Source: a virus. From it: a DNA stretch of 35,817 nucleotides. Positions within the stretch are counted from its first letter, which is position 1; each line of letters starts with the position of its first letter. Below, piece by piece: positions 1,910-19,002 of the stretch. A program made the position numbers and the translations under genes. The stretch spans positions 1 to 35,817 of IMG/VR virus record IMGVR_UViG_3300032156_000041. One strand, 5' to 3'. The notes beneath the pieces were generated by a model that ran no database searches, was not told where the DNA came from, and saw nothing but the letters and a program-made list of their open reading frames with translations.

Positions 1910-4636
1910 TTATTTTTTGCCAGCTAATATATCCTTTATAGTTTCAGGAGATAGCGGAACTTTAGGTTGGGATTCAATAGAGTTTTGCCAACCTTCTCTA
2001 ATTGCTTTTGGAACCAAAGTTTTAATCCATTGTCTAAATTCTATAGATGTTTTTTCACCTTGTTCTTCTGCGTTTCTTTGTAATTCTTTATATTCTGATG
2101 ATGTTTGATATTTAAGAATCAACTCATTGTCTCTTTGAGTTTTCATAGAAAGTTCTGGCAAAAGAAATTGCTCCAATTTCAAAACTACATTATTAGTTGG
2201 ATTTTCAGCAAAGTATTCTTTAGCAATATCTTTTTTAGATATTGGTGCTTCTTTAAGTGTCCAGTGATGAGGTTCATAAATTGGTTTATTAGGATCGTTA
2301 AGTGGCTGATAAAATCCCTCTTTTTTTGCTGCTGCACTAAATTCTGGATCGGCTGAAATTTGTCTAGGAACATCTAGTCCTCTCCAGTCTTCGTGAGGTG
2401 ATGTCCCTGGTTCCATAGCAAAATTACCTTCACCTCTTTCATATCTTGCTCGGAATTCTGTTTGTTCTTTGAAAGTTCTATAAGCCGAATTAATTGGAAA
2501 TTCACCAAAGTCTTTCTCAATATTTTCAATTTTTTCTTCAAAACGTTTCTTCTTAATATTTTTAATTAATGAGAGGTCTAAAATATTAAGAGTATCAAGT
2601 TCTTTTCCAACATTAGTTGTTACTATTTTAGTTTCTTTTACCTCTGTATCTTTTAATATGCTTGTCTGCTGTAATCTTTTTAATTCGTCTCCACTTAAAG
2701 TTCTATTTTCCCTTGCGGCTCTAGACAAAAAGGATTCGGTAAGTTTTATTTCACTTTGAAGTTCTAAAGTACGTTTTTGCTCTTCTGTCATCGTTCCAAA
2801 AATACTTTTATTTGGACTAATAATATTACCTAAATTTTTAAGTTCCAACTTAGCTTTATCCAGTTGTCCTTTTATTAATTCTGTTGAAGTATCTGATATA
2901 TTTCCACTTGGAAGTTTTTTAGCTTCTGTCTTATTTTGTTCTCCTTGTGGAGGAGTAACTGGATCTTCTGGCTTTGGTGCAACTGGAAGAAGCTTTTCAT
3001 CCTTCTTTGGTTCAGAGGAATTTATACCAATAGTTTCGTCTTCTTTTTCTCTTTCAACTGGAGGAGCCGCCGCTAACCAAAGATCGTCTCTAGTAACTGT
3101 ATTAAAACTAGTAAAATTAGTTCTAGTTGGAGATATTACTCTATATGTATAAGTATTTGGTATAGTTTGTTTAATAACCATTGTAATTATTTTCGGCACA
3201 GAAAATAATGAAATATCCGATGTTGGTTTTCCCGTATTATCTATAGATGAGATTGGATAAACTTGAATAATATATTGAGATTTAGAAAGATCTAGTTGTG
3301 TTCCATTCTTAGATAATCCATCAACTTCTAAAGCGTTGTTTACTATCTCTTCTACCTTCGCGATTAGACTATCGATATATGGAACAGTTCTATTATTGGT
3401 CACGAAAAATCTTTTAAAAGGAACGTTAGCTAATGACCAACTGGTATCAAACGCAGACATAAATTCCAATTTAAATTGTGTATCTCTATCCCAACTTTCT
3501 AGCATCTGTCCCATCTTTTCTACGTCTTCGTACTTAGATAAAGATAATGTATCGTCTCCGACTTTTAATTTTAGCGGATTAAAATTAAATGTCTTAGTTC
3601 CTAAATTCCGATTTATATTTCTGGCAAAGAAAGTATATTGCTCTGCTATTGGATTTCCGTCTGGAGAACATATGAGCGTCTGTCCAGTAAAGTGTATATC
3701 ATTAAGAGCTATCAATGTATGTTCTGCTCTAAAGTCATTTATATCTCCAAAGGTTAAAAGTATATTTAAGCAATCGGTATAGTCTTGTCCCTTTGGAACT
3801 TTTATTCCTAACGGAAAATCACCATTACTAATCTTTCCACCACTAGACGACATATAATCAAATTCGTCAGCTCTCTTAATTCTAGGATATTTACTCCAGT
3901 CATTAAATGGTCTACCATCGGAATCTCCCCAAATAGTATCCTCAAGTAATTCGGCTACATCTTCGAAGTCTCTAGTCTTATTATCTCCAAAGTAATCTGA
4001 TACAAATCCTTCCCCTACTATTCCCTTCTTATCTATTAGAATACTTTCAATCGTTTGTTGTGATCTAATAATATCAGGAGTTCCATTAGGATTATAATTA
4101 ATAGATGTTGTTCTAACTTCTGAACTACTCTGTCCGCCAGCATTAAATATATCTGTTACTCCAGGAATAAATGGAGTCTGGGTATCATTAAAATTTTCTT
4201 TAATCTTATTAAATTTTTTATTAATAGAAGCATCTGCTCGATTACGTTGTGATTCTAAGAGTGCCATTATTGTATTTAAATATCCTACCTCTTTAAACGC
4301 AATTGTAAGAACACCATTTACTAAAATTTGTCCAAGCGCAATACCTTGATAGTATTGAGAAGCATATCCATAGATAGGAGATTTAGATTGAGTAATGTTA
4401 TATTGTACTGTAATTATATCGTCTACCCATATATCTCCAAAGAAAACTTTACAGTCTGTACCTGAAAAATAATCATAAGGATAAGTTTGATAGTTATCTC
4501 TCTTAGGATTGTTAAAAGGATTCGATGTTTGACTTAAAGAACCAGCAATAGAATTATCGAACTCTTTCTTAATCTGTGTAAGAGTACGATTTTCTTTTCC
4601 TATATTAGAGGTTTCTCTTTGAGAAATAAATGCCAT
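1910..4636 (-). CDS. Tube-like baseplate/hub protein with C-terminal M15 (VanY-type) peptidase domain
   Basis: The protein has 908 residues. Residues about 55-130 and 285-345 match the tail tube gene and its neighbour in order: an FSGTDC opening, a TFGDINDFR-like segment corresponding to the MNEYGN region, and a later YTFFARNI segment corresponding to FVARAI. The middle (about 520-680) is a charged Pro/Glu/Lys linker with likely coiled coil. Residues about 705-800 look like an M15 D-Ala-D-Ala or L,D-peptidase: SAYR at 717-720, then H748 and D755 in SPHEDWRGLDV (the H-to-D spacing of the family's HxxGxAxD motif), and E788/H791 in EPHHW, corresponding to EPWHW. Zinc ligands would be H748, D755 and H791, with E788 catalytic. 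It would act on host peptidoglycan during injection. The start overlaps the previous stop (TAATG) with GAAGG upstream. A C-terminal helical tail of about 100 residues is unexplained. Confidence 0.8.
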   Translation of the reverse strand: MAFISQRETSNIGKENRTLTQIKKEFDNSIAGSLSQTSNPFNNPKRDNYQTYPYDYFSGTDCKVFFGDIWVDDIITVQYNITQSKSPIYGYASQYYQGIALGQILVNGVLTIAFKEVGYLNTIMALLESQRNRADASINKKFNKIKENFNDTQTPFIPGVTDIFNAGGQSSSEVRTTSINYNPNGTPDIIRSQQTIESILIDKKGIVGEGFVSDYFGDNKTRDFEDVAELLEDTIWGDSDGRPFNDWSKYPRIKRADEFDYMSSSGGKISNGDFPLGIKVPKGQDYTDCLNILLTFGDINDFRAEHTLIALNDIHFTGQTLICSPDGNPIAEQYTFFARNINRNLGTKTFNFNPLKLKVGDDTLSLSKYEDVEKMGQMLESWDRDTQFKLEFMSAFDTSWSLANVPFKRFFVTNNRTVPYIDSLIAKVEEIVNNALEVDGLSKNGTQLDLSKSQYIIQVYPISSIDNTGKPTSDISLFSVPKIITMVIKQTIPNTYTYRVISPTRTNFTSFNTVTRDDLWLAAAPPVEREKEDETIGINSSEPKKDEKLLPVAPKPEDPVTPPQGEQNKTEAKKLPSGNISDTSTELIKGQLDKAKLELKNLGNIISPNKSIFGTMTEEQKRTLELQSEIKLTESFLSRAARENRTLSGDELKRLQQTSILKDTEVKETKIVTTNVGKELDTLNILDLSLIKNIKKKRFEEKIENIEKDFGEFPINSAYRTFKEQTEFRARYERGEGNFAMEPGTSPHEDWRGLDVPRQISADPEFSAAAKKEGFYQPLNDPNKPIYEPHHWTLKEAPISKKDIAKEYFAENPTNNVVLKLEQFLLPELSMKTQRDNELILKYQTSSEYKELQRNAEEQGEKTSIEFRQWIKTLVPKAIREGWQNSIESQPKVPLSPETIKDILAGKK

Positions 4637-5772
4637 TATTTACCTTCTTGCCAGTTCTTCCATTCTTCCTCTGCTTTGGTGCTTGACTGAGCCTTTGGAA
4701 ACGTAGAATCATAGTTTATTATAGACGGGTTTGTTTGTTGATCTGTAGGATTTGCCTTAAGATTATCTTTACTCATAGATCCATCTATTCCATTCTGAGC
4801 ATTATATCCTCTGGTCTCGTGTTTCTTAATTTCTCCATCTACTCTCTTTAATTCTGCGACCCATAAACTTTTCTTCTTAACGGCTAAATCAAGTTGCATT
4901 TTTAAGTCTTGATTTCCACCAAGTGCAGATATACCGAGGGTAACTATATTCTTTCTACCCATCTCAGTGTATATTCTACCTATTAATACATCTTGTTCAG
5001 CAATCTTAGAATCTATACTTCTTCTATATTCTAGCATAGATCCTAATAAATTATCTGTAAATTGTCCAGCCAATTGTCTCTCAAATATTAGATCTTTAAA
5101 ACTTCCAATTTCTTTAGAATTAATAAGAACGTCCATATCTCTTGCGACATATTGCATTGTATTTTCTGAGTAAAGATCATTAATTGAGTGCACTTGGTTT
5201 TCTTGTGCAATTTCTACACCGTATAATTTAAGCACTGATGTGTGTCCATATTCATTACCAAATACTAACATTAAATCTATTGGAGGCATCTGGTCTGGCA
5301 GGGGACTGGTATATCTATCCGAAGGATTATTTGTATGTGTAAATAGTTTTAATAGATCATAAAGAGGAGATCTATCAAAGACTATAAAGATTATACTTCC
5401 AGCGATGGTTCTTCCACCAGCAGTATAGGCTTTAGCGTGAGATCTTCCAAGTACTCTAACGGGAACCTTTTCTCTAAATACCGAATAAGAGAAAGTAGAT
5501 ACATTACCTAGTAGTACAAGTTTTTCATTTACTTGTGCTACTGCGTAACAATCTGTACCTGAGTAAGAGGAATTTGCCTTTACGATATTATCTCGTACAG
5601 GATCTTTAGCTAGATCTGGATATGGTCCGCTTGTAAGAGTTCTAAGTCCATTTGTAATTAATTGAGGATCACCATTATTTAGACCAAGTTTAATATTGGT
5701 TAAACCAACTCTATCCGAGATTCCATTAAAGAATCTTGCGTTTCTATCTACTGCTGAACTTAACCAGGACAT
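4636..5772 (-). CDS. Second tail-tube-like virion protein (tube paralogue)
   Basis: This gene encodes 378 residues. Residues about 68-240 align by eye with the tail tube protein of the next gene upstream in transcription: YSGTDCYAVAQVNEKL matches SGCDIIATIDGIV, FREKVPVRVLGRS matches TREKAPIYVMGST, GSIIFIVFDRSPLYDL matches GSLIFTNFDRHALYDI, and FGNEYGHTSVLKLYGVE matches AMNEYGNRSVMHILGVE. Extra parts are an N-terminal 67 residues and a C-terminal 140 residues with a long charged, probably coiled-coil region. The start at 5772 follows AGAGG with good spacing. A tube-like fold with extensions suits a tube terminator or tube-to-baseplate adaptor; it could also be an alternative tube subunit. The paralogy is seen in the sequence and the role is inference. 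Confidence 0.75.
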   Translation of the reverse strand: MSWLSSAVDRNARFFNGISDRVGLTNIKLGLNNGDPQLITNGLRTLTSGPYPDLAKDPVRDNIVKANSSYSGTDCYAVAQVNEKLVLLGNVSTFSYSVFREKVPVRVLGRSHAKAYTAGGRTIAGSIIFIVFDRSPLYDLLKLFTHTNNPSDRYTSPLPDQMPPIDLMLVFGNEYGHTSVLKLYGVEIAQENQVHSINDLYSENTMQYVARDMDVLINSKEIGSFKDLIFERQLAGQFTDNLLGSMLEYRRSIDSKIAEQDVLIGRIYTEMGRKNIVTLGISALGGNQDLKMQLDLAVKKKSLWVAELKRVDGEIKKHETRGYNAQNGIDGSMSKDNLKANPTDQQTNPSIINYDSTFPKAQSSTKAEEEWKNWQEGK

Positions 5773-5791
5773 CTATACCTCTTCTTAGATA

Positions 5792-5820
5792 GAATAGAGC
5801 CCAATTAAGGGCTCGTATTC
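5792..5820 (-). terminator. Hairpin after the tail tube gene, possible weak terminator or mRNA-stability element
   Basis: GAATAGAGCCC pairs with GGGCTC-G-TATTC around a six-base AATTAA loop (one bulged G), just after the stop of the tube gene. On the minus strand the following bases are TCTATCTAAG, not a clean T-run, so termination would be weak. It may instead protect the 3' end of the tube message. Confidence 0.5.
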
Positions 5821-5826
5821 CATTCA

Positions 5827-6564
5827 TTAAATTGCGGGTAGCTGAGAAGTTAATTCAGCCTGTTTGATTGCGGTTAAGGTATTAAGACGATCACGAATAT
5901 TTGTAGCACCAATAACTTCGCTATAATATGCGCTCTTTCCTGTCTTGGATAATCTACCTAATGGTTTCCATCCAAGGATAGCTCTAGCTACAAAGGTCAT
6001 CTGAGTTTCTGTTACTATATCGTCAATAGATATACCAGAACCTTCATTAATTAGTTCTACACCAAGAATATGCATAACAGATCTGTTTCCATATTCGTTC
6101 ATAGCCGTTAATGATACTGTAAATGGTGGTAACTGATCAGAATAGTTACAAGGTGCTAGTTCTTGACCTAGAGTTTCAAAAACTAGATCATCCCTACTAC
6201 CTAATAACGTACTTCTACCGCCTGCTGGAACGTCGTGGAGTTTTCTCCAATAATAATATCTGTATTTGTCTGTAGTTCCGACTGCTAAACCCTCCATAAT
6301 ATCATAGAGAGCGTGTCGATCAAAGTTTGTAAAGATTAGTGATCCTGCGTGTCCTCTTTTACCACGACCAAAAGATACAGCGTCGGTGCTGCCCATTACA
6401 TAAATAGGTGCTTTTTCACGTGTAGTTGAGAACGAGATACCATTAAGATTTCCTATAACTATTCCATCTATAGTCGCAATAATATCGCAACCAGACGAAG
6501 CATTATAGGTTTGCTCTAGAGCATCCATAGCCTGACCAATTTTTTGAAACTGAGCATTAGCCAT
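5827..6564 (-). CDS. Tail tube protein
   Basis: The protein has 245 residues and lies directly downstream of the sheath gene, the normal myovirus order. It shows SSGCDIIATIDGIVIGNL near residues 22-39, then TREKAPIYVMGS, GSLIFTNFDRHALYD, a mid-region MNEYGNRSVMHILGVELI and a C-terminal TQMTFVARAILGW. These are beta-rich, suited to the tube fold that stacks as rings inside the sheath. The ATG at 6564 is preceded by AGGAGG. It is flanked by hairpins on both sides (6584-6606 upstream, 5792-5820 downstream), so its message level can differ from its neighbours; tube subunits are needed in high copy. Two longer paralogues follow it. The tube assignment rests on synteny and beta composition rather than on a catalytic signature. 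Confidence 0.75.
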   Translation of the reverse strand: MANAQFQKIGQAMDALEQTYNASSGCDIIATIDGIVIGNLNGISFSTTREKAPIYVMGSTDAVSFGRGKRGHAGSLIFTNFDRHALYDIMEGLAVGTTDKYRYYYWRKLHDVPAGGRSTLLGSRDDLVFETLGQELAPCNYSDQLPPFTVSLTAMNEYGNRSVMHILGVELINEGSGISIDDIVTETQMTFVARAILGWKPLGRLSKTGKSAYYSEVIGATNIRDRLNTLTAIKQAELTSQLPAI

Positions 6565-10213: not shown

Positions 10214-10773
10214 TAATAATTTACCTCATCAAATTGTGCTACTACTAACCAATATTGAATTCTTCCATTCTCTAATCTATATGGATGTACACGCTTTATC
10301 TTATATCGTTCAGTATATCTATATGCGCATGCTACAGGATTAGTAATGCTATGGTCTTCTAGATCTAACTCGAATATATCATCGTCAATCTTTGGTCTAA
10401 TATCATAATCAAGATAATAGACATATGTATCACCTATATCTATTCCAGGTTTAAGTTGCATTAGTTGATCTGATGATTTAGAAATTGGTACTTTTCTAGT
10501 TCTATAATACGAATCAGTATAAATATAAGCTGGTCCTTCTACGCCTTCTTTAGTGCGTTTATTATAGAATTCAGATGTTATAGTAGGATCGTAACGACGA
10601 TAGGATATCCAATGTCCTTTTGGTCTCGCTGAACCATATCCGTATAATATCCTATGAAACTCGATTCTTAAGTCTATACCGTCAGCATTAGTGAGACCAC
10701 CATATAATTGCTTGGAAAAGAAAGTATCAATTCCAGAGGTATCAGTAAAAGTAAAGTTTATAGGAGATGCCAT
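10213..10773 (-). CDS. Neck or head-tail connector protein, uncharacterised
   Basis: The protein has 186 residues. It opens MASPINFTFTDTSGIDTFF and has a basic, aromatic-rich middle (ILYGYGSARPKGHWISYRRY) and strands such as GDTYVYYLDYDIRPK and GRIQYWLVVAQFDEV. It is probably all-beta with a small helical part. The start overlaps the stop of the downstream-neighbour gene pair by the TAATG arrangement on both sides, so its expression is coupled to the connector before it and the 290-residue protein after it. Position between a connector-like protein and the tail genes suggests a head completion or neck protein. No family was recognised with confidence. Confidence 0.65.
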   Translation of the reverse strand: MASPINFTFTDTSGIDTFFSKQLYGGLTNADGIDLRIEFHRILYGYGSARPKGHWISYRRYDPTITSEFYNKRTKEGVEGPAYIYTDSYYRTRKVPISKSSDQLMQLKPGIDIGDTYVYYLDYDIRPKIDDDIFELDLEDHSITNPVACAYRYTERYKIKRVHPYRLENGRIQYWLVVAQFDEVNY

Positions 10774-11525
10774 TATCTACCCCAGTATGTTCTATATGTC
10801 TGCCAATCGTATCCATTTTCCCAAGGACCAACTGGATTAACATTATTTGTCAGGATTGGTCTTACTACTCTATTATGATATGGTTCGCGAACTGGATGAG
10901 CATACATCTTTGACTCATCATAGTAACCTCTAACTGCGGTTCTTATTCCATTAAGAGAATTTAATATTTCTGTCCAGCAGTCCAGTAATTGTTTCTTCTT
11001 AGACGGATCAGACTTTGGACCACTGCCACCACCAGTACCACCGTACTTAATAGTTAAATCACCTAAGGTTTTAAGTTGATCGACATTATTTCCATTAACT
11101 GATTCCATAAGAGCTAAGATATCATATGCTGTCTTACATTCAACATATCTTCTAAATAAGAACGGTATATCATTTGGCCCACAACCCCAAGTTGTATATG
11201 TATTTGTTTGACTCTTAGCTAAGTTATATATATCCACTGCATCCATAGAATTTTTATAGATCATTCGATAAATTGTATCATCTATAAGGGAATCAGCTAC
11301 TGGACCAGCCTCAAGTCTAACTCTATTAACTGTGGTAAATAATGGACAGTATGTAGAAGTAAACCAAAAAGTATAGTCTTCATCTAGTGTATCATATGCT
11401 CCAGTCTCGGGCAGATAACCAGACATTCCAGTATTAATAGTTATTTTATATAGTGTATTATATGATAGACTTCCCGAAGGAACAATCGATACAAGATTTT
11501 CATAAGTCTGTAAAAGATAAACCAT
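10773..11525 (-). CDS. Head-tail connector-like protein with N-terminal Ig-like segment
   Basis: The protein has 250 residues with the start at 11525 (MVYLLQTYENL), because GGAGG lies just upstream; the longer GTG start at 11537 is less likely. Residues 1-58 resemble the second half of a bacterial Ig-like (Big_5) domain: LSYNTLYKITINTG, then DEDYTFWFTSTYCPLF. Residues about 65-155 contain helices (VRLEAGPVADSLIDDTIYRM, CKTAYDILALMESV) resembling the helical gp6-type head-tail adaptors. A Gly/Ser/Lys linker (GGTGGGSGPKSDPSKKK) leads to a C-terminal helix and an Arg/Trp-rich tail. It would sit at the neck joining the portal to the tail. The connector call is moderate and the Ig-like call is by pattern only. 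Confidence 0.65.
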   Translation of the reverse strand: MVYLLQTYENLVSIVPSGSLSYNTLYKITINTGMSGYLPETGAYDTLDEDYTFWFTSTYCPLFTTVNRVRLEAGPVADSLIDDTIYRMIYKNSMDAVDIYNLAKSQTNTYTTWGCGPNDIPFLFRRYVECKTAYDILALMESVNGNNVDQLKTLGDLTIKYGGTGGGSGPKSDPSKKKQLLDCWTEILNSLNGIRTAVRGYYDESKMYAHPVREPYHNRVVRPILTNNVNPVGPWENGYDWQTYRTYWGR

Positions 11526-11537
11526 TACAACCTCCAC

Positions 11538-14500
11538 TTAACGCCAGATATCTACACTGGACTCGCCAACACAAACAAATACTGTGGCCCAGCCAGATGA
11601 AGTATCTCCAGGATTAATAGTAGTATACGACTCTGAACTAAACGAACTTGAGTATATAGGAATAGTATCCCATGAGGATCCTTCTCCAGAACAAGGATAT
11701 ACGTAACCTTCAGAAGAAGAACTAGACATCGAAGATATACTACTTAAACTTGATAGACTAGAACTTTCTGACGATATAGAACTCGAACTAAGAGAACTTA
11801 GACTAGATCGTGACGATTCTTCTGAACTTGCCGAAGAATACGAACTAATAGAAGATTTACTACTAATAGAAGACGAAGAACTTAAACTTGACTCGCTCGA
11901 CTTACTCGAACTACTTGAAGACTCTGAACTCTTACTTGAACTAGATGAACTGCTTTTACTTGAACTCTCCGATGACGGAGAGCTTAATGACGATACACTT
12001 GACGCGGATGATTTTGAACTACTTTCTGAAGACGGACTACTTAGAGTGGATAGACTACTTAAACTTGATGGGCTCGACTTGGAACTGCTCTCAGACGAAG
12101 CAGTACTTTTCGATGATACTGAACTCGGACTCGATTTGGAACTTGATTCACTTGATAAACTTGAAGCAGTACTAACGCTTGACACGCTGGACTTACTACT
12201 TGATTCGGAAGAAGGACTAGATACCGAACTCGGACTACTAGGACTAGATTTAGAACTACTTTCGCTACTTTTAGACGATGCAGTACTTAAACTAGATGGA
12301 CTACTTGCCGAAGACTTTGACGAACTTTCTGAACTAGGACTAGACTTAGAGCTTACGCTACTCTGACTCGACTTGCTAGAACTTTCGCTCGATGGACTCG
12401 ATTGACTAGATGGCGAAGATTGGGTACTAAGAGAACTAAGACTAGAAACGGAAGACTTACTTGAAGACTCAGATGATGGAGAACTCAGACTACTCTTACT
12501 ACTAGGAGTAGATTCACTACTTAAACTAGAAAGACTAGATAACGACGAAGTAGAACTACTAGAAGAACTAGAACTACTTTCTGAACTTTTACTGGATGAC
12601 GATGAATTACTTATACTTGATAGACTAGATAGCGAGCTAATACTTGACTTAGAACTGCTGCTCTCACTACTGAGACTTGACGGCGAACTCTGACTACTCT
12701 GACTTGATGCGCTTGACGCACTACTAACTGAAGAAGATTCGCTACTTTTCGAAGACGCAGTAGATAGAGAACTTAGACTCGATTTACTTGAACTAGAACT
12801 AGACTCACTAGACTTGGAACTTGGAGAAGAAAGAGATGACTTGGAACTACTAGACTCACTCGATGGACTCGAAAGACTAGATTGGCTACTCTCCGACGAA
12901 GAACTCTTTGAAGATTGAGTGCTTAGACTACTTAAACTACTTAATGAACTTGCCGACGACTTAGACGAAGATTCACTAGAAAGAGAAGAAGGACTACTCG
13001 CACTAGACGAACTATTAGAACTAGAACTTTCACTTGATTTAGAACTTATACTTGTAGCAGATGCAGTACTAGCAGAAGATAAAGAACTGCCACTAGAAGG
13101 AGAAGAACTAGATAGACTAGATGAGCTACTACTTTCGCTTGATAAACTGCTCGCGCTAGATTTACTAGAACTTTCGCTACTTAAACTTGAAGCAGAACTT
13201 TTAGAACTTTCACTACTTGAACTACTCTCTGAACTTAGTGTAGATAAACTAGATTGTGAACTTTTGGAGCTACTCTCTGAACTTAGAGATGACTGAGAAC
13301 TAATAGAAGATACAGAACTTGGACTACTACTAGACTTTGAGGAACTTGACGAACTGGACTCTGATGAGACCGAACTCTTTGAACTACTTTCAGAACTAGG
13401 ACTAGATTTGGAAGATGCCGAACTAGCGGATGATTTACTACTAGATTCGGAAGACTTCGAACTAGGAGAACTAGCACTAGATAAAGAAGAAGGACTACTC
13501 TTAGAAGAACTAGAACTAGATTCACTTGATAATGAACTCTCTGATGATTGACTCGAACTACTCGGAGAACTTGAACTCTCACTAGACGCTGAACTAGCAG
13601 TTTGTTCTGATGCCGAACTAGGAGAAGATATAGAACTAACACTAGACTTTGAACTACTACTCGAACTTTCAGAACTTTTTGAAGACGATTCACTACTAAC
13701 ACTACTTGGACTTGACGCTGAACTAGGTGACGAGACGCTACTTTTAGACGAAGTAGACGAACTAGATTCACTACTCTGAGATGACTGAGTACTTTGGGAT
13801 GACTTTGAGCTACTCTCACTTGAAGGAGACGACGCAGAACTTATACTTGAAACCGAACTCTTCGAACTGCTTTCGGAACTAGCCGACGAAGGACTAGATA
13901 TAGAACTTACACTACTCTTACTAGAACTTTCAGAAGAAGGGGAACTTAAGGATGAGGCACTAGACGCAGAAGATTTAGAACTAGACTCACTTGACACACT
14001 AGACTTACTACTTGGACTAGAAACAGATGATTTTGAACTACTTTCGCTACTTGGAGACGAAGGCGAGGACGGACTTGATTGACTCGATTTAGACGAACTC
14101 TCACTTGATGGACTACTTACACTAGACGCACTAGATTTCGAACTACTTGATTCTGAGCTAGGACTAGACACGGAACTTTTAGAACTACTCTCGGAACTAA
14201 CACTTGAGGGCGTACTTAAAGAACTATCTGAACTTTTACTTGATATACTACTTACTGAACTCTTACTACTACTTTCGCTACTAGGTGAGGACTCTTCAGA
14301 TGCACTACTGGGAGACGATAGAGAACTAATAGATGATTTAGAACTACTTTCACTTGATAGAGATGAAGGACTACTTTGACTTGATTTAGAACTACTACTA
14401 GAACTTTCCGATGATATAGAACTAGGACTAGATGCGCTAGAGGCACTAGATTTACTACTTGACTCAGATGATAAACTAGATGGAGACGATGGAGAACTAA

Positions 14501-16547
14501 CACTAGATTTAGACGAACTCTCACTAGAGGGCGTAGATAAACTTGATACAGAACTAGCACTTGATTTTGAACTGCTTTCACTGCTAGGAGAAGAAGGACT
14601 ACTAGGTGAACTCGCAGAACTCTTACTAGAAGATTCAGAAGACGGAGAACTCGCGCTAGACACTGAACTAACTGATGACTTAGAGGAACTTTCAGATGAG
14701 ACACTAGATATAGATGACGGACTACTTGCGCTTGATTTAGAACTAGACTCACTACTAGGCGACGAAGCAGAACTAACACTTGACGGAGATGACTCAGATG
14801 ATTTTGAACTAGATTCACTCGAGAGAGAAGACGCACTAGAAGGAGAACTAACAGACGATTTACTTGAACTCTCTGATGACCCGCTACTAGGAGAACTAGC
14901 CGAAGAAACACTAGAAGGAGTAGATAAGCTACTTGCAGATGACTTACTACTACTCTCGCTACTTTGTGATGAAATTTCTGATGCGCTACTTGGACTTGAT
15001 ATTGAACTCGCAGAAGATTTCGATGAACTCTCACTAGATGGCGAACTAATACTAGATACCGAACTTACACTACTTTTACTTGAACTCTCAGAAGATCCAC
15101 TCGAAGGACTACTAGCACTTGATGCGCTAGACTTACTACTAGATTCGGAAGACGGACTTGATGCCGACGAAGGGCTACTAGCACTTGACTTTGAACTACT
15201 TTCACTGCTTTTGGATGACGCAGTACTTAAACTAGAAGGACTACTAGCAGAGGATTTAGATGAACTCTCAGAACTAAGACTACTGGCGCTACTCGGTGAA
15301 CTAGCTGATGACTTGCTACTTGATTCACTAGATTTGGAACTGGCGCTACTCGGTGAACTAGCTGATGACTTGCTACTTGCTGATGATTTACTACTCGATT
15401 CGCTACTCTTTGAACTAACCGTTGAAGCAGAACTAGCAGATGACTTACTCGATGACTCTGATGATTTGCTACTAGCCGATGATTTACTCGATGACTCTGA
15501 TGATTTGCTACTAGCCGATGATTTACTCGATGACTCTGATGATTTGCTACTAGCAGACGCAGAACTAGCACTAGAGGCAGATCCAACTGTTGATTCATCA
15601 GCACCAATATCACAAGTTGAACCTGATCTGGTATTATCATCAATATCTTTTGCGGGCACATTTGCATCAGCTGAGGGACCAATTCCTGCTCCTATTGCAG
15701 CAGTATCGGATGAAGCTAAATGTAAGTCGCCACCAGCTTTGTCAGCAAATGTCAATGTTGTACTTGTTACTGACCCTGTACCAGTAGCAGTTGCATCATC
15801 TGATAGGTTATAACTTTGACCTGTACTTGTACTAAAGCAAGTAGATATATCCTGACCTATATTATTCTTGGAAGTCCAAGTTCCACCTGATCTTGAGTAT
15901 CCAGTAGTGGTAGAGGCGTTATCACCTACCAAGGTATTATTGTAAACAGATACATTGCCACCTGCCGTGGTCTCAATTATTGAATTAGCACGATATAAAT
16001 GACTAATGTTATTAGTAATTGACCAGGTAATGTTTGCTGAGGTACCTGTTATACAACGGACGTTTCCTGTGCTTGCTGCTGAATAAGTGAACACACACTT
16101 ACCAACAGAATAAGTGGAACCTGCTCCTGCTGTACCAGTACCAGATATTGGCCCATGACTTGATCCAGAGGTTGTCTTATTAGGTTTAAATCCAATACCA
16201 ATTACGAAAAGATCAATTCGATTAGTATTATTTACATGGATAGTAATAGGAGATGCGCTGGAAAGTTCCATACGGTACTTATTACCTGTTTGGTAAGTAC
16301 CATTATGGCGATAAGTTTCTGTGGGTTCTGTCCAGACTATGATGTAGCGGGTAGCATCACAAGTCCATCCTGTAAAAGTAACTGCTGTAGTATCCGCAGT
16401 ACCACCTGTACATCTGCATCTACCAACCATTATCTGATCAGCAGTAACTAAATCTGTATCTTCTCCAGCCTCAAATGCAGACATAGATGCATAGTCAAAA
16501 CCAGCACCACTATCAGGATCTATTATTTTTGTTACAGTTGTTGCCAT
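11538..16547 (-). CDS. Giant serine-repeat fibre protein with N-terminal beta-helix-like domain
   Basis: The protein has 1669 residues in three parts. Residues 1-320 are Thr/Ser/Gly-rich strands with Asn ladders (VYNNTLVGDNAS, WSITNNISHLY) ending in KDIDDNTRSGSTCDIGADES, the D-D-x-R...DIGAxE signature common at the end of right-handed parallel beta-helix domains. Residues about 322-1612 are almost pure SSx triplets (x = A, P, V, L, I, Q, K, E, T) with a recurring ESSSKSS core. Residues 1613-1669 are a short cap with aromatic residues and two Cys. The start at 16547 has no Shine-Dalgarno site; the upstream bases are all A/T in a short palindrome. The likely role is a long fibre or whisker. It lies between capsid and neck genes, so head or neck attachment is plausible. 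The stalk is probably extended and could be glycosylated, but no glycosyltransferase is in the window. Confidence 0.8.
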   Translation of the reverse strand: MATTVTKIIDPDSGAGFDYASMSAFEAGEDTDLVTADQIMVGRCRCTGGTADTTAVTFTGWTCDATRYIIVWTEPTETYRHNGTYQTGNKYRMELSSASPITIHVNNTNRIDLFVIGIGFKPNKTTSGSSHGPISGTGTAGAGSTYSVGKCVFTYSAASTGNVRCITGTSANITWSITNNISHLYRANSIIETTAGGNVSVYNNTLVGDNASTTTGYSRSGGTWTSKNNIGQDISTCFSTSTGQSYNLSDDATATGTGSVTSTTLTFADKAGGDLHLASSDTAAIGAGIGPSADANVPAKDIDDNTRSGSTCDIGADESTVGSASSASSASASSKSSESSSKSSASSKSSESSSKSSASSKSSESSSKSSASSASTVSSKSSESSSKSSASSKSSASSPSSASSKSSESSSKSSASSPSSASSLSSESSSKSSASSPSSLSTASSKSSESSSKSSASSPSSASSPSSESSSKSSASSASSPSSGSSESSSKSSVSSVSSISSPSSESSSKSSASSISSPSSASEISSQSSESSSKSSASSLSTPSSVSSASSPSSGSSESSSKSSVSSPSSASSLSSESSSKSSESSPSSVSSASSPSSESSSKSSASSPSSISSVSSESSSKSSVSSVSSASSPSSESSSKSSASSPSSPSSPSSESSSKSSASSVSSLSTPSSESSSKSSVSSPSSPSSLSSESSSKSSASSASSPSSISSESSSSSSKSSQSSPSSLSSESSSKSSISSLSSPSSASEESSPSSESSSKSSVSSISSKSSDSSLSTPSSVSSESSSKSSVSSPSSESSSSKSSASSVSSPSSESSSKSSQSSPSSPSSPSSESSSKSSVSSPSSKSSVSSESSSKSSASSASSLSSPSSESSSKSSVSSISSPSSASSESSSKSSVSSISSASSPSSESSSKSSQSTQSSQSSESSSSTSSKSSVSSPSSASSPSSVSSESSSKSSESSSSSSKSSVSSISSPSSASEQTASSASSESSSSPSSSSQSSESSLSSESSSSSSKSSPSSLSSASSPSSKSSESSSKSSASSASSKSSPSSESSSKSSVSSESSSSSSSKSSSSPSSVSSISSQSSLSSESSSKSSQSSLSTLSSESSSSSESSKSSASSLSSESSSKSSASSLSSESSSSSSLSSSSPSSGSSLSSASTASATSISSKSSESSSSNSSSSASSPSSLSSESSSKSSASSLSSLSSLSTQSSKSSSSESSQSSLSSPSSESSSSKSSLSSPSSKSSESSSSSSKSSLSSLSTASSKSSESSSVSSASSASSQSSQSSPSSLSSESSSSKSSISSLSSLSSISNSSSSSKSSESSSSSSSSSTSSLSSLSSLSSESTPSSKSSLSSPSSESSSKSSVSSLSSLSTQSSPSSQSSPSSESSSKSSQSSVSSKSSPSSESSSKSSASSPSSLSTASSKSSESSSKSSPSSPSSVSSPSSESSSKSSVSSVSTASSLSSESSSKSSPSSVSSKSTASSESSSKSSPSSLSSLSTLSSPSSESSSKSSASSVSSLSSPSSESSSKSSSSSSSKSSESSSSSSKSSESSLSSSSSISSKSSISSYSSASSEESSRSSLSSLSSSSISSESSSLSSLSSISSMSSSSSEGYVYPCSGEGSSWDTIPIYSSSFSSESYTTINPGDTSSGWATVFVCVGESSVDIWR
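15282..15379 (-). repeat. Pair of identical 41-base direct repeats, 57-base period
   Basis: The 41 bases at 15282-15322 recur exactly at 15339-15379. The repeat lies inside the serine stalk near its N-terminal end and preserves the reading frame (57 = 19 codons). It looks like a recent in-frame duplication. Confidence 0.8.
15439..15555 (-). repeat. Three tandem copies of a 39-base repeat (13 codons)
   Basis: Copies at 15439-15477, 15478-15516 and 15517-15555 are nearly identical, differing at one or two bases (GATGAC versus GATGAT at the start and the last base). Each encodes one ASSKSSESSSKSS-type unit. This is the clearest nucleotide-level tandem array in the stalk and probably the youngest expansion. 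Confidence 0.88.
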
Positions 16548-16576: not shown

Positions 16577-16759
16577 TTATCTCCAACGTATCTTGTATCG
16601 ATTTATTACTCTTGGAGTATTAAGATGCCTATTAAGTTTAATCGTTAAGATATATGCGGGCGTAGATTCTACTTTAAGAACATAAAAAGTATCCATTGCC
16701 GAAAATGCGTCAACTATATAAAAAAGAACAAAAGCAAAAACTAAAAAAAACTTCGACAT
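16577..16759 (-). CDS. Small exported or membrane protein (60 residues)
   Basis: The protein opens MSKFFLVFAFVLFYIVDAFS, a Lys followed by a strongly hydrophobic stretch of about 14 residues and then Ala-Phe-Ser-Ala, which looks like a signal peptide with a possible cleavage site near residue 21. The remaining 39 residues are basic and polar and end YKIRWR. GAGGA precedes the ATG at suitable distance, so it is very likely translated. It sits between the fibre-type protein and the giant serine-repeat gene. It carries no known domain. It could be a small membrane protein acting late in infection or an exported accessory to the fibre. No function can be assigned. Confidence 0.7.
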   Translation of the reverse strand: MSKFFLVFAFVLFYIVDAFSAMDTFYVLKVESTPAYILTIKLNRHLNTPRVINRYKIRWR

Positions 16760-16776
16760 CTATTATCCTCATCTAT

Positions 16777-17217
16777 TTAATCGATGCTGGTTGTTAAACC
16801 ACCAATAGCAAAACGGGGCGTTACACCAACACCTACTGTAAATGACGGCGTAAGAATACCACTAATTAATAAAGTTCCTGTACCTGTTGCCGCCGTTCCA
16901 ATTCCAAAATAAGTAACTACATTAGAATTAGCAGTACACTGTCCAAAAGTAATTATGGTTGCGTTAGTACAAGTACTTCCAGAAACTGTCCATCCAGACG
17001 AAGAACGAACCACAGTAACTCGAGAATATCCCGTATACGTCGCTTCAGATGTACTTTGATTTCCCGCTTCTCCTGGATCAGAGGTATGCAAACTAACATA
17101 TAAATTACCTGCTGCACTAGCTCCACGTAGACCAGTCGCATTACCAATATTAGCAATATTAGCATTTTGAAAGATGTGAAGAAGATTAGAATTTTCAAAT
17201 GAATTAGATGCAGACAT
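16777..17217 (-). CDS. Fibre-type beta-sandwich virion protein
   Basis: The protein has 146 residues. It matches a phage protein pattern I recognise from tailed phages: LYVSLHTSDPGEAGNQ, then SEATYTGYSRVTVVRSSSGW, NATIITFGQC, VVTYFGIGTAATGTGTLL and a closing TPRFAIGGLTTSID. The pattern predicts a compact beta-sandwich, often annotated as a tail fibre or minor structural protein. It is Ser/Thr/Gly-rich like its neighbours. It sits between the two genes that carry SSx serine repeats, which suggests that the four genes 11538-18054 form one fibre or decoration module. The ribosome site is weak (AGGAAATAAAT). The family is recognised by pattern and its exact function is not established. Confidence 0.75.
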   Translation of the reverse strand: MSASNSFENSNLLHIFQNANIANIGNATGLRGASAAGNLYVSLHTSDPGEAGNQSTSEATYTGYSRVTVVRSSSGWTVSGSTCTNATIITFGQCTANSNVVTYFGIGTAATGTGTLLISGILTPSFTVGVGVTPRFAIGGLTTSID

Positions 17218-17226
17218 ATTTATTTC

Positions 17227-18054
17227 CTATGTTGATAAGGTTCCAGTCCCAGACATAGTCATTATAGTAGATCCAGCTAATAGACTATCTTCATAACTAG
17301 ATGAACTTTCACTACTATTGGAGCTATTAGAAGAGGCACTACTCAAAGACGAATCAGAACTTAAACTTGATTTAGATGATGACTCACTAGATATACTAGA
17401 GTTACTACTTTTAGAACTGTTAGACGAATTAGAAGATGCACTTTCTGAACTGGTGGAAGACTGAGATGAGTTACTACTAGAAGATACATAAGTAGTAGTA
17501 CTTGGTACTATAATTCGTTCAGTATAATTATCGCTATATTTTAGATAATCGAATGGAATCTTCTTACCTTTAATTACTCGTTGTACTTCAAAATTATTGA
17601 GGGTTAGCATTCCAGTAGATTCAAGATAACTGTTTTGCGAATCTGTTAGCTCTGTAAAGTCTATATAGTAATTTTTCCAGACATAATCTAATAGTGGATT
17701 GTCTGTTAAGTTATCTCTAACTCTATAGTCATACTTGTAAACTTCATAAGGAGTCTCAATTTCATTTTTCAAATTAAACGGTATTGATGGAGCACATATA
17801 CGATAAAATCTTGGCAGTCTTTCCATTCTTCCCCAGGCGCAGATATCTTTTCTAACTTCTATAATATCTCCGCGACCGCGAACGTGCCATTCGGGTTTAT
17901 GATCATACATGTCTTTAGGTTCTTTATATACTCCTTTAACAGGAGTAAAAGGATCGTATTTACCCTGCCACTTCATAGGAATAATACGATCGTCCGTAAT
18001 TATATTATTCCTACGAGTTTCAGAACTTAAGGCTAAAACCAGAAGATTTGCCAT
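17227..18054 (-). CDS. Virion protein with short C-terminal serine-repeat tail
   Basis: The protein has 275 residues. Residues 1-190 form a folded, aromatic- and charge-rich domain (KWQGKYDPFTPVKGVYKEP, CAWGRMERLPRFYRICAPS) that I do not recognise. Residues about 191-253 are SSx repeats including ISSESSSKSSLSSDSS, the same core unit as the giant protein at 11538-16547. The last 22 residues (YEDSLLAGSTIMTMSGTGTL) are a small non-repeat cap. The ATG at 18054 lies two bases after the previous stop and lacks a clear ribosome site, so re-initiation is likely. A shared repeat suggests that both proteins belong to the same appendage, with this one perhaps a base or adaptor. That link is inference. 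Confidence 0.7.
   Translation of the reverse strand: MANLLVLALSSETRRNNIITDDRIIPMKWQGKYDPFTPVKGVYKEPKDMYDHKPEWHVRGRGDIIEVRKDICAWGRMERLPRFYRICAPSIPFNLKNEIETPYEVYKYDYRVRDNLTDNPLLDYVWKNYYIDFTELTDSQNSYLESTGMLTLNNFEVQRVIKGKKIPFDYLKYSDNYTERIIVPSTTTYVSSSSNSSQSSTSSESASSNSSNSSKSSNSSISSESSSKSSLSSDSSLSSASSNSSNSSESSSSYEDSLLAGSTIMTMSGTGTLST
17296..17484 (-). repeat. SSx serine-repeat coding segment (about 63 residues)
   Basis: The segment has Ser-Ser-x triplets with x mainly N, K, E, L, D, I and Q. Compared with the giant stalk it is richer in Asn and contains Asp, but it shares the ESSSKSS core. Serine codons are mixed TCN/AGY here as well. Confidence 0.85.
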
Positions 18055-18056
18055 AC

Positions 18057-18374
18057 TTAGAATGTAGTCGCATCTTTAAAGAGTCCAACTGCATATGAAG
18101 GATCGGCCGAACCAGTCTTAGTAAGATTCTTGAATGCTTCATACATATTTAATAAAGCTACTCTAAATGTACTAATATATGCAATTGATTGTGCGCTATA
18201 TCCATCAGGATCTGTATTTCCACTTGGTAGAGTTTCGAGATCTGCCTGTGTAAGAGTATTCAAGAAATCTGCATAGTCCATCCATCTCTCTATATTTCTA
18301 TCTACTTCATTAGCAATATTCTTATTCATACTATTTAACTGGGTCTTTGTAAGTGGGTTCAATTCTGGTAACAT
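18057..18374 (-). CDS. Small helical protein of the connector/fibre cluster, unknown function
   Basis: The protein has 105 residues and a strong ribosome site (AAGGAG eight bases before the ATG). It is predicted helical: NSMNKNIANEVDRNIERW, DYADFLNTLTQADLETLPSG, then AYISTFRVALLNMYEAFKNL. No membrane segment or catalytic motif was seen. It sits between the Ig-like protein and the protein with the serine-repeat tail, and its stop is two bases before the next start. A structural chaperone or small connector is possible, but nothing in the sequence decides this. Confidence 0.65.
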   Translation of the reverse strand: MLPELNPLTKTQLNSMNKNIANEVDRNIERWMDYADFLNTLTQADLETLPSGNTDPDGYSAQSIAYISTFRVALLNMYEAFKNLTKTGSADPSYAVGLFKDATTF

Positions 18375-18396: not shown

Positions 18397-19002
18397 TTAA
18401 ATTACGGGTTCTTCTTCTACCGTTATATATCTATAAAGTCTACAAGTATGATCTATAAATCCTGTAAACGTAAGTACTATTCTTTCAAGATCATTTGTTA
18501 TATTTGGTTCTTGATTAGTTGGATCTGTCTTATATACGTAAAATGTTGATGCATCTATAGGTGCTCCTCCATGTAACGTATGTCCTTCAAAAGGATTCGA
18601 TACTCCAGATTCGGATACTCCAGATTCGGATACTCCTGATCCTGTCCCTTCTAAGAGGCCGCTTCCCGTTGTAAAAGACCATTGATAGGTTGTATCTAAT
18701 TGTTCGTTCGCTGTACTTATTACACTATTAGGAGAGCCATAAACATAGAATCTATACTTAGCATATGGAGACAGATTTATAGTAGGAGTAAAGTGTATCG
18801 TATCAGCTACCCCACTAGTATTATAATGCAATTCTAGTGTTCCAGGAACGGTTGTAAAATAGTTATAATCGTTTAGACTTAAGTGAGTATAATCAAGAGA
18901 ATTAAGAATAATTCCCTGATTAAATTTAATATCTATAACGGGATTCCTTGGAATATCTACAGTATTAATTCCAGGATAGTGTTCTATGACTCTTAGTGAC
19001 AT
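18397..19002 (-). CDS. Bacterial Ig-like (Big_5-type) virion protein
   Basis: The protein has 201 residues. Residues 1-113 show the Big_5 pattern: an N-terminal HYPGINTVDIPRNPVIDIKF strand pair, NQGIILNSLDYTHLSL, TIHFTPTINLSPYAKYRFYV and a closing TTYQWSFTTGSG. A flexible linker with three SGVSE-type pentapeptides follows (residues about 120-135). The remainder may begin a second, incomplete Ig-like unit (DLERIVLTFTGFIDHTCRLY). Ig-like domains in phage capsid, neck or tail proteins usually give weak surface or carbohydrate adhesion. The ribosome site is poor and the ATG lies three bases after the previous stop, suggesting re-initiation. The domain is called by pattern. Confidence 0.7.
   Translation of the reverse strand: MSLRVIEHYPGINTVDIPRNPVIDIKFNQGIILNSLDYTHLSLNDYNYFTTVPGTLELHYNTSGVADTIHFTPTINLSPYAKYRFYVYGSPNSVISTANEQLDTTYQWSFTTGSGLLEGTGSGVSESGVSESGVSNPFEGHTLHGGAPIDASTFYVYKTDPTNQEPNITNDLERIVLTFTGFIDHTCRLYRYITVEEEPVI
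18599..18643 (-). repeat. Three 15-base tandem repeats encoding SGVSE linker units
   Basis: GATACTCCAGATTCG occurs twice in direct succession (18599-18613 and 18614-18628), then a degenerate third copy at 18629-18643. The repeat is in frame and lengthens the linker after the Ig-like domain. Confidence 0.85.

Follow-up and report, generated by a model that had tools for sequence, protein, structure and literature searches.

The DNA analysed here, hereafter the window, is a virus fragment of 35.8 kb (IMG/VR record IMGVR_UViG_3300032156_000041, positions 1 to 35,817). PHROGs labels on its ORFs include terminase, portal, maturation protease, capsid, virion structural and sheath proteins, a set that indicates a contractile-tailed phage. 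The genes follow each other in the order terminase, portal, protease, capsid, ORF A, a cassette, ORF B, two virion proteins and sheath. By portal, the closest named phages are Moorella phage MTATph1 and Bacillus phage KLEB27-3 (26-31% identity) and, since the relative L012 is carried by a contig of 213 kb, a jumbo-like size is likely for the phage of the window. The cassette between ORFs A and B spans 6.9 kb and contains five ORFs, including the gene of a very long serine-rich protein, which we refer to as the Ser-stalk protein. The features of the locus are:

10773 to 11537, minus strand: ORF B, one border of the slot that holds the cassette, with a connector-like conserved region as described for L004
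11538 to 16547, minus strand: Ser-stalk protein, whole ORF, 1669 aa in translation
11538 to 11711, minus strand: its C-terminal end, 57 aa, with Cys and aromatic residues
11712 to 15575, minus strand: its Ser stalk, aa 325-1612, 1288 aa, in 19-residue E-SSS-K-(SSx) units
15432 to 15557, minus strand: 39-nt tandem repeat, 3.2 near-identical copies, at the start of the stalk
15576 to 16547, minus strand: its N-terminal domain, aa 1-324, beta-rich in look and possibly a beta-helix (by eye)
15594 to 15722, minus strand: aa 276-318, end of the N-terminal domain, weakly choice-of-anchor Q-like (17 bits, cut-off 25)
16577 to 16759, minus strand: 60-aa ORF that may not be a gene
16777 to 17217, minus strand: 146-aa protein of the PF23140 Gp80 family (GP4 fibre I), homologue of PDB 8JOU chain a
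17227 to 18054, minus strand: 275-aa protein, 190-aa N-terminal domain and a Ser-rich tract of its own
17296 to 17484, minus strand: this tract, 63 aa, x mostly Asn, one ESSSKSS
18057 to 18374, minus strand: 105-aa ORF
18397 to 19002, minus strand: ORF A, the other slot border, one complete Big_5 Ig-like domain and the apparent first half of a second

A preliminary description of this locus had reported a giant stalk of Ser-Ser-x triplets at 11712 to 15584. The stalk is indeed there and its coordinate 11712 stands, the other end being computed at 15575 instead of 15584. Ser accounts for 877 of its 1288 residues (68%), followed by 76 Lys, 72 Glu, 61 Pro, 59 Ala, 47 Leu and 32 Val; three Gly, one Asp and one Arg are among the minor residues, large hydrophobic residues are few, and 295 of the 388 Ser runs are exactly SS. 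The stalk was rightly called a neutral polyampholyte: its net charge is +4 and the cumulative charge stays between 0 and 7 from end to end, Lys and Glu being balanced throughout. The proposed pairing of Glu and Lys at i/i+4, with a shift of register inside ESSSKSS, was also confirmed, as we counted 43 E(i)-K(i+4) pairs (ESSSK) and 43 ESSSKSS words, when shuffling residues and run lengths apart gave a mean of 1.5 ESSSK and a maximum of 6 in 2000 shuffles. The Ser run is 3, 6 or 9 long after 52 of the 72 Glu and equals 2 modulo 3 after 72 of the 76 Lys, showing that the register shift is specific.

The repeat unit, however, is not the 13-mer that had been proposed. The 42 gaps from one ESSSK to the next measure 19 residues in 22 cases, 22 in four, 25 in three, 28 in three and 13 in two. 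When ESSSK words were kept intact and whole tokens shuffled 2000 times, a spacing of 19 was obtained 1.4 times on average and 6 times at most, and a spacing of 13 was obtained 2.5 times, so that a 13-residue period does not exceed chance and a 19-residue period holds in its place. Both 13-residue gaps fall within the first units of the stalk, the sole region with this spacing, where a 39-nt tandem repeat (3.2 copies, 96% match) is found. The string ESSSKSSxSSxSS occurs 36 times, as the opening of a longer unit, E-SSS-K-SS-x-SS-x-SS-x-SS-x-SS, in which x is preferentially Ala or Val at position 8, Pro or Val at 11, mixed at 14 and Pro at 17. The spectral peak of the stalk lies at 3.16 residues (19/6). 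Because the gap equals 1 modulo 3 in 36 of 42 cases, nearly each unit moves the Ser-Ser-x register forward by one. Composition and the 3.16-residue spacing also uphold the earlier view that the stalk is neither collagen (G-x-y triplets are lacking, with 3 Gly in 1288 residues), nor a Ser homopolymer, nor a coiled coil (no peak at 3.5 among the top 12 spectral peaks and frequent Pro, including at x positions).

The 43 ESSSKSS words are encoded by 42 different DNA forms, and the 22 units of 19 residues, 0.83 identical as protein, share a DNA identity of 0.511 compared with 0.508 +/- 0.007 for randomly drawn codons. Thus, the amino-acid pattern of the stalk, rather than a DNA repeat, appears to be conserved. 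AGY and TCN codons for Ser are mixed freely in the units; since passage between the two by single steps goes via a non-Ser codon, this one sequence suggests that the protein pattern has been under selection for a long time. With codons so randomised, an assembly artefact is likewise improbable, the 39-nt repeat excepted.

Residues 276-318 of the Ser-stalk protein match choice-of-anchor Q (NF041518) with 17 bits (E 0.005), below the curated cut-off of 25. In bacterial surface proteins this domain precedes the surface anchor, and the resemblance hints that the N-terminal domain may be the displayed part; in the usual order of phage fibres, the C-terminus is distal. By eye, no signal peptide or sorting motif was seen in the translation, which terminates in VCVGESSVDIWR and has no LPXTG at its C-terminus. 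One neighbour is the product of ORF 16777-17217, a member of PF23140 (69.6 bits for a cut-off of 27, E 4e-19) and a homologue of 8JOU chain a (E 6e-7; ten such chains in the PDB entry), with relatives in several phages. In podophage GP4, this family (Gp80) provides fibre I, and the Ser-stalk protein shows no match to it. ORF 6125-6556 of L012 was considered as a relative of the Gp80-like protein and the link was unsupported. For the 105-aa ORF (18057-18374) the search returned no relatives. The presence of two Ser tracts with ESSSKSS in one cassette suggests common origin or common use.

The cassette occupies a variable slot. ORFs A and B are adjacent in the relative L004, with a 1-nt overlap in TAATG, overlap by one base in L009 and are 28 nt apart in L011; another ORF lies between them in L002, and four different ORFs, including one for a 756-aa protein, in L012. 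The slot is therefore empty in three relatives, holds other genes in two and holds the Ser-stalk cassette in the window. The more distant L013-L016, like Bacillus phage KLEB27-3 (where it is gp021, annotated structural), have B as part of a single ORF, about 490-590 aa long, whose C-terminal part matches it, and Big_5 domains precede the B-like part in L014, L015 and KLEB27-3, the three tested. The tail of ORF A is conserved and resembles the first half of another Big_5, while ORF B of L004 opens with Big_5 model positions 58-94, the second half, followed by the conserved connector-like region; the ORF B copies of the window and L012 align with that of L004, the window copy being below the Pfam threshold for Big_5. 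An ORF A profile gave no convincing alignment to KLEB27-3 gp021, though both are Big_5 by Pfam. From this comparison, the gene appears to be whole in distant relatives, whereas in this clade it is split within the second of its Ig-like domains; judging from the genes found there, this split is the site of gene addition. One Big_5 domain is apparently divided between two polypeptides, those of ORFs A (18397-19002) and B (10773-11537), in this clade. The B region of L014 weakly resembles DUF4054 (E 0.0018, below the cut-off), a lead that would fit a head-tail connector. A 15-bp tandem repeat (window 18594-18640, SGVSE repeated) lies in the linker between the Ig-like parts of ORF A. The 756-aa protein of L012 (7100-9370) is rich in Ser, Thr, Gly and Asn and possibly a beta-helix; it has no family match, and a link to the N-terminal domain of the Ser-stalk protein was unsupported.

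Short patterns of the stalk match 395 viral stretches. A TCN-biased ESSSKSSxSS pattern matches 69 viral stretches and at least 119 genome stretches, and the Ser-richest ORFs among these, mostly short frames, contain a single ESSSK each and no comparable stalk. DNA matches to the stalk in phage PDCC-1 and Klebsiella plasmids run antisense to annotated genes and are not relatives. No comparable Ser-rich ORF occurs in any piece of L012. With the stalk as protein query there were no matches, low-complexity filters most likely masking it, and sequence searches limited by these filters found no other multi-unit ESSSK stalk. Similarly, limited literature searches found no 1288-residue SSx stalk with a 19-residue charge-paired period. 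Relatives were found neither for the N-terminal domain, in viral contigs or in phages, nor for the 57-aa C-terminal end, in viral contigs; for this reason, the protein carries no direct fibre annotation.

We consider it rather probable that the Ser-stalk protein forms an accessory appendage on the virion of a jumbo-like phage with a contractile tail, a long disordered tether lying between folded ends. The net-neutral 1288-residue Ser-Ser-x tether, most likely soluble, extended and without a fixed fold, would link a folded N-terminal domain of ~324 aa to a small C-terminal one of 57 aa; one end of the protein would be attached to the head-tail neck or the capsid, the other reaching toward a surface to which it may bind. 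Because relatives have no insert or different genes in the slot, the appendage would be an optional and exchangeable module between two structural genes, and the products of ORFs A and B would together form one Ig-like domain. The preliminary proposal of a virion fibre gains indirect support from the head-to-tail order of the structural genes and from the neighbour with a solved fibre homologue, a gene position being no proof of a place in the virion. A very improbable alternative is a non-virion protein, secreted or acting as a surface adhesin of the infected cell: it would account for the weak choice-of-anchor Q-like end of the N-terminal domain, but the gene lies within a structural module beside a fibre-family protein and the translation seems to lack the signals for such a fate.

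The physical state of the stalk bears on two further alternatives. Disorder is probable. AlphaFold2 on six stalk units as one chain, with its own repeats as alignment, gave a pLDDT of 49 and no secondary structure, predictions on one or few sequences being weak evidence for disorder (the N-terminal domain gave 31 when run without alignment). The mean hydropathy, 0.419 for a charge-hydropathy boundary of 0.414, falls just on the folded side; general formulae give a radius of gyration near 11 nm if the stalk is unfolded and a length of about 400 nm if it is fully stretched. The stalk could instead be a new type of shaft, as first suggested; in an ordered, multimeric form of it, the non-Ser residues, recurring every 19/6 = 3.17 positions, form one stripe through which polyproline-II-like chains of roughly three residues per turn pack, the E/K pairs locking the register at the shifts. 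The sharp 3.16 spacing and the specific +1 shift at ESSSK, the small aliphatic residues or Pro at positions 8, 11, 14 and 17, and a pattern kept while codons were randomised would all fit. However, this shaft is not supported by the one-chain prediction, almost half of the gaps depart from 19, large hydrophobic residues are few and Pro is frequent at x, and we regard it as quite unlikely. The same holds for an undescribed fibre shaft of parallel 19/6-repeat chains standing on a neck with a two-chain Ig-like domain, the split of which would be both docking and gene-insertion site for exchangeable fibres. Somewhat less unlikely, though still doubtful, is a glycosylated scaffold like the streptococcal serine-rich repeat adhesins, where host or phage enzymes would add sugars to many Ser, stiffening the chain and masking the virion. 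Such a scaffold is compatible with the proposed appendage and differs in the cause of extension; it agrees with 877 Ser in 1288 residues, with x residues mostly small and with N-S-S words in the second Ser tract next door, but the PHROGs matches of the scanned ORFs of the 35.8-kb fragment include no glycosyltransferase and the repeat is unlike the published repeats of these adhesins.

Poly-Ser linkers of bacterial polysaccharide-degrading enzymes are flexible spacers between domains, tens of residues long and without charge pairing; the Ser stalk would likewise be a Ser-rich interdomain spacer, but one that is 1288 residues long and charge-paired. In streptococcal serine-rich repeat adhesins, a long Ser-rich stalk presents a folded binding domain. 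The proposed appendage would resemble them in this respect (these adhesins are reviewed in PMC7661464) but differs by its SSx unit with E-SSS-K every 19 residues, by the absence of a C-terminal sorting motif and by being phage-encoded. In lactococcal 936 phages, nps (neck passage structure) genes are optional in the head-to-tail region, being present, absent or different among close relatives. They encode the collar found between capsid and tail, which in some phages bears long whiskers tipped with knots (PMC4759559). Optional neck genes, some of which make whiskers, are thus of a known kind, and the Ser-stalk cassette is similarly present, absent or exchanged at one head-to-tail site. This likeness comes from gene position, not from sequence comparison: the 936 phages are siphophages, the nps site precedes the gene of the major tail protein whereas the Ser-stalk site lies inside a split Ig-like gene, and the place of the Ser-stalk protein in the virion is putative. 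If the appendage reading is right, phages can make very long appendages from a plain Ser-Ser-x chain, which is not collagen, coiled coil or beta-helix, and a strict charge-paired period is seemingly held by selection while the DNA scrambles freely. The slot would then be a place for the exchange of entire appendages among large phages, amid a split Ig-like structural gene, offering a place to seek further fibres of new kinds.

Two other observations concern the structural genes. Three ORFs past the sheath gene (window 1910-6564) match phrog_9206 'major head protein'; this label is probably wrong, as KLEB27-3 has three 'tail tube' genes in the corresponding place, and the three ORFs may be tube paralogues. 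Finally, the portal ORF of L004 (67-3141) is 1024 aa long, with roughly 300 additional residues past about residue 340, which are intein-like in look with a Cys at their start and an end near HLFITMRNGRIAIQGN.
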